5,182 nt of DNA from Alistipes sp. (GTDB lineage: Bacteria; Bacteroidota; Bacteroidia; Bacteroidales; Rikenellaceae): assembly GCA_017646785.1 (NCBI GenBank), contig JAGCLX010000043.1, positions 1 to 5,182 on the forward strand. Reading direction: 5' to 3'. Below the pieces are notes generated by a model that saw only the letters and a program-made list of their open reading frames with translations, searched no databases and was not told the origin of the DNA. A program made the position numbers and the translations under genes. This document shows positions 1,731-4,770 of this stretch, in pieces (position 1 is the stretch's first letter; every line of letters begins with the position of its first letter).

Positions 1731-1794
1731 GTTATGGTAATAGGCAAATGGTGTACCAAACAAAAAAACGCGCAAAATGTGGCATAATTATCTC

Positions 1795-1886
1795 TGGCAC
1801 GCTGCCACTACCGCCATTTTTACGTCACACGCATGACATTTTGTCAGTCGCAACGCTCTTCACCCCACCAATCTGTCACCATGCCA
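1795..1886. promoter_or_regulatory. Three spaced copies of TGNCA-N3-TGNCA, likely binding sites
   Basis: Three sites share one plan: TGGCA-CGC-TGCCA (1795-1807), TGACA-TTT-TGTCA (1834-1846) and TGTCA-CCA-TGCCA (1874-1886). Since TGNCA is its own reverse complement pattern, each site is a 5-3-5 dyad readable on both strands. The centres lie at 1801, 1840 and 1880, spaced 39 and 40 bp apart, about four helical turns. A lone TGGCA also occurs at 1780-1784. The sites are 135-226 bp upstream of the dnaK start and about 100-190 bp upstream of the lipoprotein promoter. Regulation of dnaK (stress response) is the more natural guess, but control of either gene is possible. No regulator is encoded in the window. 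Confidence 0.55.
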
Positions 1887-2063: not shown

Positions 2064-4442
2064 ATGAAAAAAATTTTTACTTTGGCGGGATTGCTATTTG
2101 CACTCTGTGTCGTTGGCTGTACCTACGACGACTCTGCAATTATCGACCGCATCGAGAGGCTCGAGAACGACAGCAAGATCGCCTCTATTCAGCAGCAGAT
2201 TGACGCTATCAACGCATCGCTCATCGAAATGAAGGGTGTCAATTCGGAGATTAAGGGTTACATCACCGTATTCCAAGATGCCGTTGAGGATATCGAAGCT
2301 TCGCAATCTGATATTGAAGAGCTTAAGTCGATCATCAGCACACTAACCGCCAAGGATAAGCAGTTGGTTGCGAGCATTGAGGAGCTTGAGGAGTATGTCA
2401 ATGAGGAGCTTCAAAACACCAAGGACTGGGCAACTGCTACCTTTGCCACCCTGGAGCAGTACAATGCGCTTGCTGAGTTGGTTGCCGAGTTGGATGAGTA
2501 CATCAAAACTATTGAAGAGGAGATAGATGGCAAAATTTCCACATCCATTGCAGACCTCGAGGCATCGATGAAGCAGTGGGTAAACGAGCAGCTTACCGGT
2601 TACTACACCATTGCAGAGGTTGATGCCGCTCTTAAGTTGTTGGAGGAGTCTATCACAGCTGTAGAGGGTGACTTCCAGACTGAGATAGAGACATTATCTA
2701 ACCGTATCGACACTCTCGAAGAGGATATTACAACAGCATATACCACTGCTATTACTGAGGCGATAACCAGCAATAATGGTATCATAGACACAAAAATTGC
2801 AGACGAGATAGACTCGGTTAATAGCCGTATCGATAGTGAGATAGCAACTATTAATGCGAAGATTGTGGCACTCGAGTCGCGCCTTATTAAGGTAGAGAAC
2901 GACATTGAGTACCTCCTTTCTCGTGTGCAGTCTGTGAGCTATGTACCCACACATAGCGATGGCAAGGCCACATTGAAGTATAGTGGCGATAACGGCTACC
3001 TGGATTTGGATTTTGAGATTAGCCCCAAGGAGGTGCTTCCCACCTTGGCAGAGGTGTGGCAGTATGCCGTAACTGTCAAGGCTGTGGTTACCGAGACTCG
3101 CGCCGTGGAGTTTATATCGCTCCCCGTAAAGTCATTTGAGGTGGATAGCGCTAATGGCATTGCGTCGTTGCGTGTTGAGTGCGACAATCTTCTATCTCTT
3201 GGCCTTGCTGACAACCAGGGTGTTAGCGTAGCAATGTCAATCTCTGATGGCAACACCTCTGTCGTTTCAGCATATATACCTGTTGTCTTTGAGGAGTCTG
3301 ATGATATCGAGGAGGACCTGGAGGACGACCAGCCCGCGCCAATACTCAGTTTCTATGCACCAGAGGTTACTCTTGATGCAGCAGCATACACAAACAGCCG
3401 ACTTATCTATAAGCTTCAGAACCCCGTTGATGGTGGCGTTCTTACCGCAGAGTCTAAGGTTAATTGGATCACAAACATCAAAGACAACGACGGTTACATC
3501 ACATTCGCTGTTGCTGAGAACGAGGGCGAGGAGCGCACAGGTAAAATCACTGCTACATACACGACAGACAAGCACGAGGTTAAGGCAACTGCTACTATCA
3601 TCCAGTCTAAAGCAGACATCAACGAAACCGTAGAGTATGAGACATTCACCATCACAGAGGTACACGCTAACGCAAGCTCAAGCGACACTTGGAACCTTAT
3701 CTTGTTCGAGAACGACCCTATCCTCGGCGAGGTGTACACACGTATCACTGTTAAGCTTCCAAAGGCTAACGCACAGTACATCACTGATGGCGCATACAGC
3801 GTTGCAGCTGGCACTATCATTCCTAACACATCTGGTGACGCAATGTATAACAGCTACTACCGCTTTAATACAGTCAGTACAGGTGGAGCTATCACCGACG
3901 CCACACTCACAATCGCTATCGACAAGGAGAACAAGACCGCACAGTTCAGTGGTTCATTTATTGCCGAAAGAAAGATTACTGTAGACAACGAGGTTACCAT
4001 AGAAAAAAAGGCCTTAACATTTGAGTGGGACGGTGCAGTAGATGGTTTCGTATACCAGGATATCGACGCAGGCATCACTGAGTGGGACTACTTCTACATC
4101 TACAGCCACTGGGATGACACTAAGTATGTAGTAGGATACTCTGACAAGATTCGTTTCGACTGGTACCTCAAGAAGCTTGGCGGTAAGAAGTCTGACCCAG
4201 TTGCTGCTGGTACTTATGTAGTAAGCGAGTGGGAGTCAACAACAACAAAGGATTATGTTGATGCTTCTGCAACTAAGATTAACGGCGTACTTCTCCAGAC
4301 TGGTGGTGTAGTGACTATCAATGAGGTTGCCGAGGGTCTCGAGTTCACATTCGATGTAACTGATGTTAACGGCACTAACTGGAAGGGTACTTATGTAGGT
4401 CCTATCGATCCTAACTTGTACTACAACCCATACGCAAACTAA
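2064..4442 (+). CDS. Predicted surface lipoprotein: coiled-coil stalk, BACON-like domain, duplicated C-terminal module
   Basis: No specific gene is recognised. Residues 1-18 form a signal peptide ending in lipobox VVGC, with C19 as the lipidated residue; the following T-Y-D-D-S has the early acidic residues seen in some Bacteroidetes surface-export signals. Residues 26-290 are a highly acidic coiled coil with clear heptads, for example hydrophobic positions I256, I260, I263, I267, L270, L274, V277, I281 and L284. Residues about 291-409 are a middle domain containing KAVVTETRA and SISDGN. An acidic hinge (410-422, 10 of 13 residues D/E) precedes a BACON-like Ig domain (427-516: VNWIT, ENEGEERTGKITATY). 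Two similar modules follow (about 541-664 and 672-781). No enzyme motif is visible. Binding of glycan or protein on a long stalk is inferred from BACON's association with carbohydrate-active proteins. ATG 2064 is set by the signal peptide and the promoter. It is monocistronic, with a terminator just after. Confidence 0.93.
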   Translation: MKKIFTLAGLLFALCVVGCTYDDSAIIDRIERLENDSKIASIQQQIDAINASLIEMKGVNSEIKGYITVFQDAVEDIEASQSDIEELKSIISTLTAKDKQLVASIEELEEYVNEELQNTKDWATATFATLEQYNALAELVAELDEYIKTIEEEIDGKISTSIADLEASMKQWVNEQLTGYYTIAEVDAALKLLEESITAVEGDFQTEIETLSNRIDTLEEDITTAYTTAITEAITSNNGIIDTKIADEIDSVNSRIDSEIATINAKIVALESRLIKVENDIEYLLSRVQSVSYVPTHSDGKATLKYSGDNGYLDLDFEISPKEVLPTLAEVWQYAVTVKAVVTETRAVEFISLPVKSFEVDSANGIASLRVECDNLLSLGLADNQGVSVAMSISDGNTSVVSAYIPVVFEESDDIEEDLEDDQPAPILSFYAPEVTLDAAAYTNSRLIYKLQNPVDGGVLTAESKVNWITNIKDNDGYITFAVAENEGEERTGKITATYTTDKHEVKATATIIQSKADINETVEYETFTITEVHANASSSDTWNLILFENDPILGEVYTRITVKLPKANAQYITDGAYSVAAGTIIPNTSGDAMYNSYYRFNTVSTGGAITDATLTIAIDKENKTAQFSGSFIAERKITVDNEVTIEKKALTFEWDGAVDGFVYQDIDAGITEWDYFYIYSHWDDTKYVVGYSDKIRFDWYLKKLGGKKSDPVAAGTYVVSEWESTTTKDYVDASATKINGVLLQTGGVVTINEVAEGLEFTFDVTDVNGTNWKGTYVGPIDPNLYYNPYAN

Positions 4443-4612: not shown

Positions 4613-4670
4613 GACAAGCGTTGTCGCGGGCAGGGGTTGACAAGCGCACTCCCCCAACAAAACCCACCGT

Positions 4671-4770
4671 CCTCTGTCGTCCTGAGCTTCCCTCTGTCAT
4701 CCTGAGCACCCCTCTGTCATCATGAGCCCCCCTCTGTCATCCTGAGCCCCTCCTCCTGTCATCCTGAGCG
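4671..4770 (+). repeat. Five tandem copies of a 20-bp unit CCTCTGTCATCCTGAGCNCC
   Basis: Four exact-length units start at 4671, 4691, 4711 and 4731. They differ at a few positions (CGTCC in the first, CATCATGAGC in the third, and the two bases after GAGC). A fifth, slightly shifted unit (about 4752-4770) runs on into GAAAGCGAAGGATCTCC. From memory, the GTCATCCTGAGCGAAGCGAAGGATCT motif recurs in intergenic DNA of many bacteria, including Bacteroidales. Here only its first half has been multiplied. Confidence 0.85.

Follow-up and report, generated by a model that had tools for sequence, protein, structure and literature searches.

A phased dyad upstream of dnaK in an Alistipes genome as a probable sigma-54 enhancer, with a candidate activator for Bacteroidia chaperone genes

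Sigma-54-type promoters have already been described at chaperone genes of the Bacteroidota. Start-site mapping in Flavobacterium psychrophilum placed such promoters (SM4 promoters) before groESL, lon, dnaK, grpE-dnaJ, and htpG, which belong to one co-expression cluster, and before clpB, which belongs to another; the same report points to three PF00158 proteins that might act as distinct activators, and lists a sigma-54-dependent regulator gene that is followed by lptE (PMC9723704). A position-matrix study of the Bacteroidota found sigma-54 promoters enriched at groESL, dnaK, grpE-dnaJ, htpG, and clpB (PMC12316311). The targets and the −24/−12 type are the same as those we describe here; but the portions of the two reports drawn on here contain no enhancer sequence and do not settle which protein is the activator (PMC9723704; PMC12316311), whereas we supply a site, a rule for its phasing, and a candidate for the activator.

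We analyzed a 5,182-bp stretch of Alistipes DNA (hereafter the window). We consider it probable that the sequence upstream of dnaK in this window is a sigma-54 enhancer region, served by an activator of the NtrC/PspF class, a bacterial enhancer-binding protein or bEBP (most likely one that we call bEBP-B), and that it belongs to a chaperone regulon. The basis for this reading was obtained by computation and consists of the promoter form, the enrichment of the motif, its helical phasing, the membership of the regulon, and synteny. No report of this enhancer or activator was found in the literature searched, outside which most subscription papers lay; what is new here is the enhancer and its candidate activator, the sigma-54 promoters of these chaperones being already published.

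The dnaK gene occupies positions 2-1660 of the window (reverse strand; an open reading frame that runs off the window, Pfam HSP70, 850 bits), and its product is 95 and 94% identical to the DnaK proteins encoded by two Alistipes MAGs from the sheep gut (L002 and L001, respectively), which makes the window Alistipes-like (Rikenellaceae). Divergent from it lies a large gene with a BACON match and a lipoprotein-like start (2064-4442; open reading frame and domain match). By eye, TTTG...TAATTTTG at 1986-2013 could be a primary-sigma promoter of this BACON gene; downstream of the gene, a CCTCTGTCATCCTGAGC-like unit can also be seen in several near-copies (4670-4770). The gap upstream of dnaK (start at 1660, minus strand) is as an earlier note on this DNA described it, and the three exact matches to TGNCA-N3-TGNCA (exact dyads) that the note reported there are real: they are located at 1795-1807, 1834-1846, and 1874-1886, with centers 39 and 40 bp apart, and are the only ones in the 5,182-bp window. 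Since TGNCA is its own reverse complement, the direct and inverted readings of this pattern are identical. When one mismatch is allowed, the window has five matches vs. 2.8 in dinucleotide shuffles, so the exact matches are what matters. The interval given in the note starts at 1780 and thereby takes in an extra half-site, TGGCA (1780-1784), which lies between the dyads and the promoter.

That promoter, which the note had overlooked, is about 35 bp from the nearest dyad: a sigma-54 −24/−12 promoter of dnaK, TTTGGTACACCATTTGCC (1743-1760, reverse strand), aligned with 49 other strict matches. Read on the dnaK strand (1760-1743), it has GG at 1757-1756 and GC at 1745-1744, giving a TGGCA-type −24 element and a TTGC-type −12 element at the fixed spacing of sigma-54 promoters; the dnaK start point is expected near 1732. 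We compared 81 dnaK loci, namely the window and the best 80 of 588 relatives, using a strict form of the promoter (TTGG[CT]A-N6-TTG) and a relaxed one (TGG[CT]A-N6-T.G). The relaxed form is present in all 81 loci, 30-180 bp upstream of dnaK, and the strict form in 50 of them, vs. 0.33 in shuffles (which here, and in the dyad, one-mismatch, half-site, and phylum-wide htpG comparisons below, keep base counts only). At the −12 position the window has a C; the 50 strict promoters have C in 6 cases, A in 29, and T in 15. RpoN is encoded in all 17 related genomes. A scan of the window for sigma-70-type promoters gave five matches vs. 5.9 in shuffles. An RNA thermometer or other RNA family was rejected as a candidate, with no Rfam match at gathering thresholds.

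Of the 81 loci (window plus best 80 of 588), 41 have at least one exact dyad in the 450 bp before dnaK, vs. 0.36 loci in shuffled sequence. In the 80 relatives (best 80 of 588), the 250 bp upstream of dnaK contain 43 dyads in 20,000 bp (2.15 per kb), vs. 31 in 882,108 bp from other parts of these loci (0.035 per kb), so that the dyads are about 60 times denser upstream of dnaK. Among the 41 loci that have no exact dyad in range (window plus best 80 of 588), 33 contain one-mismatch dyads (44 sites, vs. 1.5 in shuffles) and the other 8 have no one-mismatch dyad either. The presence of the motif at dnaK in relatives, on which the earlier note had made its proposal depend, was thus borne out, and the motif is commoner there than chance would give. 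The logo of the sites is approximately CTG[AC]CA-(A/T)3-TG[TG]CAG.

The distances between the dyads and their promoters are also patterned. Pooled over dnaK, groES, htpG, and clpB, the dyad centers are found at about 18, 28, 40, 50, 61, 71, 81, and 92 bp from the −24 element, a 10.5-bp periodicity with R = 0.86 for 72 sites (where there were several promoter candidates, the best-looking one was taken). Since the loci are related and the Rayleigh values overstate their independence, the 26 distinct distances were tested separately and gave R = 0.72; the phasing of the 34 sites more than 30 bp away was matched in none of 20,000 random placements. The 44 one-mismatch sites keep the phase of the exact dyads (R = 0.72, mean offset −0.5 bp). 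An enhancer (UAS) is marked by variable distances on a fixed helical face, and the dyad appears to behave as an enhancer of the adjoining sigma-54 promoter. The commonest position of the dyad is about 45 bp before the expected start, which is nearer than usual for a bEBP.

The three dyads of the window are not equivalent when judged by these rules. The middle one (1834-1846, TGACA-AAA-TGTCA on the dnaK strand) is a perfect palindrome and is in phase, its distance to the −24 element being 81 bp, or 18 bp and six helical turns; with a matrix built from 61 other sites it scores 20.7 bits, the 84th percentile of those sites. It is probably the working enhancer in the window. The proximal dyad (1795-1807, TGGCA-GCG-TGCCA on the dnaK strand) lies 42 bp before the −24 element, misses the phase by 3 bp, and scores −0.2 bits; the distal dyad (1874-1886, TGGCA-TGG-TGACA on the dnaK strand) is 121 bp away, 2 bp out of phase, and scores 5.3 bits. 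Both are exact matches to the pattern, and neither reaches the lowest score among the 61 comparison sites (10.7 bits; median 19.1 bits).

The earlier note had taken the three dyads as a regular array of cooperatively bound sites, about four helical turns apart on one face of the DNA. The 39-40 bp between centers correspond to 3.7-3.8 turns of 10.5 bp, and the equality of the sites is contradicted by the scores of the outer two. The array as a conserved design also fails: the window is the only one of the 81 dnaK loci (window plus best 80 of 588) with three exact dyads, and four others have two. Placement on one face survives as a relation between each dyad and the promoter, but not along the triple array. 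We therefore regard it as unlikely that all three dyads act together as a cooperative array of sigma-54 enhancers, the outer two being atypical and 2-3 bp off phase and the triple occurring once in 81 loci, even though three exact matches do stand in one gap, and the 150 bp before the promoter are enriched in TGNCA half-sites (262 vs. 38.8 in shuffles; window plus best 80 of 588), so that several subunits may bind. The atypical outer dyads are also the one point in favor of functionless chance matches, an explanation to which we give practically no credence in view of the enrichment, the phasing, and the regulon pattern; for the middle site these already refute it.

The same dyad is found at other chaperone genes. 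For example, the single contig of an Alistipes MAG (G012; 1,883,277 bp, 3,500 of them N) contains eight exact dyads. Chaperone operons account for five of these: groESL, dnaK, and htpG have one apiece in their upstream regions, and grpE has two within it, upstream of dnaJ. The remaining three are within reading frames lacking an assigned name (the genes of this contig, and of the bEBP-B neighborhoods below, were called with a simple script, which missed grpE). Across the 17 genomes searched, an exact dyad was found at 15 of 18 groES loci (one locus being a second, weak match in G017) and at 12 of 15 htpG loci, where 11 of the 12 dyads are 18 bp from the promoter and one is at 19 bp. The relaxed promoter form is present at 15 of 18 groES, 15 of 15 htpG, and 14 of 15 clpB loci. 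The proposal that the dyad marks chaperone genes thus held for groES, htpG, and grpE (see below), but less so for clpB, which has an exact dyad near the gene in only 3 of 15 loci despite its promoter; in two loci of the clpB set (L270 and L272) the match to the model does not begin until about residue 142, so that their true start may be absent, and a third (L271) is cut by the contig end. By their common dyads, dnaK, groESL, grpE-dnaJ, and htpG appear to belong to one chaperone regulon, perhaps together with clpB.

The htpG sites bear on another explanation, in which a different factor uses the dyads as its operators, e.g., RprY, an OmpR-type protein that represses chaperones in Porphyromonas gingivalis. 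In gel shifts RprY bound the groES, clpB, and dnaK promoters, which would suit such a role, but not the htpG promoter (PMC3646045, in the portion drawn on here), the very gene at which exact dyads are frequent and held at one distance. Placement at whole helical turns from a sigma-54 promoter also better suits a sigma-54 activator, and we consider an operator of this kind very unlikely.

In grpE the dyads take an unusual position. An exact dyad is present in 12 of 15 loci, in the early coding sequence and downstream of the promoter (which was found in 9 of the 15). Two dyads with at most one mismatch each are exactly 33 bp apart in 10 of the 15 loci (L229, L230, and L234-L241), and L231 and L232 have a single one-mismatch dyad each. 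Dyads within a reading frame might instead reflect a conserved protein motif; but the residues that they encode vary (e.g., CANMAD, DANVAD, ADNMSE, and CVNVSD) while the dyad is kept, which suggests that selection acts on the DNA. Paired dyads within the early grpE coding sequence would be unusual in-gene enhancers.

To find a reader for the dyads, we compared the PF00158 proteins scoring above 200 bits in the 17 genomes (a few that did not fit the script motif were left unclassed). Family B, or bEBP-B, is present in 16 of the 17 genomes and has a length of about 400 residues, a G[SA]FTGA motif in all 16 proteins, and a Fis-type HTH; in the three proteins checked with Pfam the AAA+ domain starts at residue 12-15, with no N-terminal sensor domain. 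An AAA+ domain with a GAFTGA loop and a Fis-type HTH is the combination that characterizes a bEBP. Each of 40 further genomes gave exactly one bEBP-B match (E up to 1e-80). In 44 aligned bEBP-B proteins, the HTH contains SERTLYR in at least 95%, and there is partial conservation of a helix that joins the AAA+ domain to the HTH. The closest structures solved are those of AAA+ domains from NtrC-class proteins, NifA and ZraR among them; among the NCBIfam matches listed, 25 for each of two bEBP-B proteins, no model was over its cut-off.

Family A is present in 15 of the 17 genomes, one copy each (L082-L086, L088-L096, and L098), and has a receiver-like N-terminus, lacks an HTH, and carries GAFTSA or GSFTSA at the GAFTGA position (Pfam check of three proteins, as for bEBP-B). 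It was rejected as the reader of the dyads for the missing HTH in the three proteins scanned and for the GAFTSA/GSFTSA motif in all 15; it may act with bEBP-B as a partner, or inhibit it. In seven genomes (G002, G003, G006, G008, G009, G012, and G016) these two families are the only PF00158 proteins above 200 bits; bEBP-B is then the sole strong PF00158 protein with an HTH, so it alone would be expected to bind DNA there.

The genomic context of bEBP-B points in the same direction. In 4 of 12 bEBP-B neighborhoods (L353, L354, L356, and L359), the genes for bEBP-B, an lptE-like protein, a TPR-like or unnamed protein, a secG-like protein, GroES, and GroEL stand in a row, the neighbor names being assigned from short motifs and by eye. 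In 8 of 40 distinct genomes (L328, L331, L343, L353, L354, L355, L361, and L364), the start of the bEBP-B gene, or of the first gene in its presumed operon, has an exact dyad no more than about 120 bp away; the scan covered 52 loci, omitting 9 more without a start-motif match, and many of the rest lack the region before miaB. In several cases this dyad is close to or over a TAnnTTTG-like element, and the dyads at the bEBP-B promoter suggest self-repression, which is known for PspF and NtrC.

On these grounds bEBP-B is likely the reader of the dyads. It seems improbable to us that the sigma-54 promoter is real and the dyads are read by a bEBP other than bEBP-B: the larger genomes do carry further PF00158 proteins with an HTH, and the dyads occur without a close bEBP-B in G001 and some distant genomes, but the seven genomes with a single strong HTH-bearing PF00158 protein, the synteny with groESL, and the dyads at the bEBP-B promoter itself all speak for bEBP-B. 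Along with the scarce clpB dyads, the nearness of the commonest dyad position to the promoter, and the atypical outer dyads of the window, some further results weigh against our reading. In the MAG G001, one of the two nearest relatives and maybe incomplete, bEBP-B was not found, and exact dyads are present at dnaK, groES, and htpG. In Parabacteroides (G017) and Barnesiella (G013), where both bEBP-B and sigma-54 promoters are present, dnaK, groES, htpG, and clpB have no exact dyad, and dnaK has one-mismatch sites only.

A comparison across the phylum supports the link between bEBP-B and the dyad weakly. Among 31 genomes drawn, 23 had an HSP90 match, giving 22 new htpG loci (G012, already counted, was omitted), of which 7 have the relaxed promoter form. 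A dyad with at most one mismatch is present at htpG in 6 of the 7 genomes with a bEBP-B of at least 57% identity, and in 5 of the 15 genomes without such a bEBP-B (9% of shuffled regions); three of those five (G063, G068, and G073) have an identical exact site in nearly the same position, perhaps through one event. At three similar loci (L376, L377, and L378), the exact dyad TGACATCGTGACA stands upstream of htpG and the best bEBP match is only 45-46% identical.

In the mechanism we propose, a bEBP of the NtrC/PspF class would bind the dyad CTG[AC]CA-(A/T)3-TG[TG]CAG together with nearby TGNCA half-sites; from the matching helix face, it would reach the sigma-54 RNA polymerase held closed on TTTGGTACACCATTTGCC and open that complex through ATP hydrolysis. 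The activator would most likely be the sensor-less bEBP-B, of about 400 residues, which would repress its own gene via the dyads at its own promoter. The earlier note had suggested a stress regulator or an alternative transcription factor acting on dnaK; a regulator working with an alternative transcription system agrees with our results, and the stress stimulus we only infer (induction by protein-folding stress), as we do binding by bEBP-B, the sign of the control, and the self-repression.

A wider proposal can be put forward tentatively, as one that is possible and rather less than even in our estimation: bEBP-B might be the regulator dedicated to chaperones (heat shock) in the Bacteroidia, a sensor-less and self-repressing sigma-54 activator, controlled by free chaperones or through a partner, e.g., family A, that drives dnaK, groESL, htpG, and grpE-dnaJ from phased dyads, some of them as near as −45, and grpE via an enhancer pair in the sequence coding for the GrpE N-terminus. 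Now that a site, a rule for its spacing, and a single candidate gene, removable in a laboratory strain, are available, the question of how these chaperones are switched on can be tested directly.

Several known systems can be set beside this one. HrcA-CIRCE likewise provides common control of chaperone operons via an inverted repeat, but HrcA is a repressor of another class than bEBP-B; it was rejected as an explanation, HrcA being found in none of the 17 related genomes (7 of 14 control genomes were positive), in agreement with the earlier view that CIRCE does not account for the dyads. In Myxococcus xanthus, HsfA/HsfB and lonD represent an NtrC-class activator acting on a heat-shock gene; HsfA is a phosphorelay response regulator, whereas bEBP-B has no receiver domain (three proteins). 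PspF, of the phage shock response of E. coli, resembles bEBP-B in having an AAA+ domain and a Fis-type HTH with no N-terminal sensor, and in having sites at its own promoter, where bEBP-B has dyads at its own. The two differ in that bEBP-B scores below the NCBIfam cut-off for PspF (258.1 and 257.2 vs. 443.55 bits, two proteins), and in that PspF targets the psp genes, whereas the candidate targets of bEBP-B are cytoplasmic chaperones.
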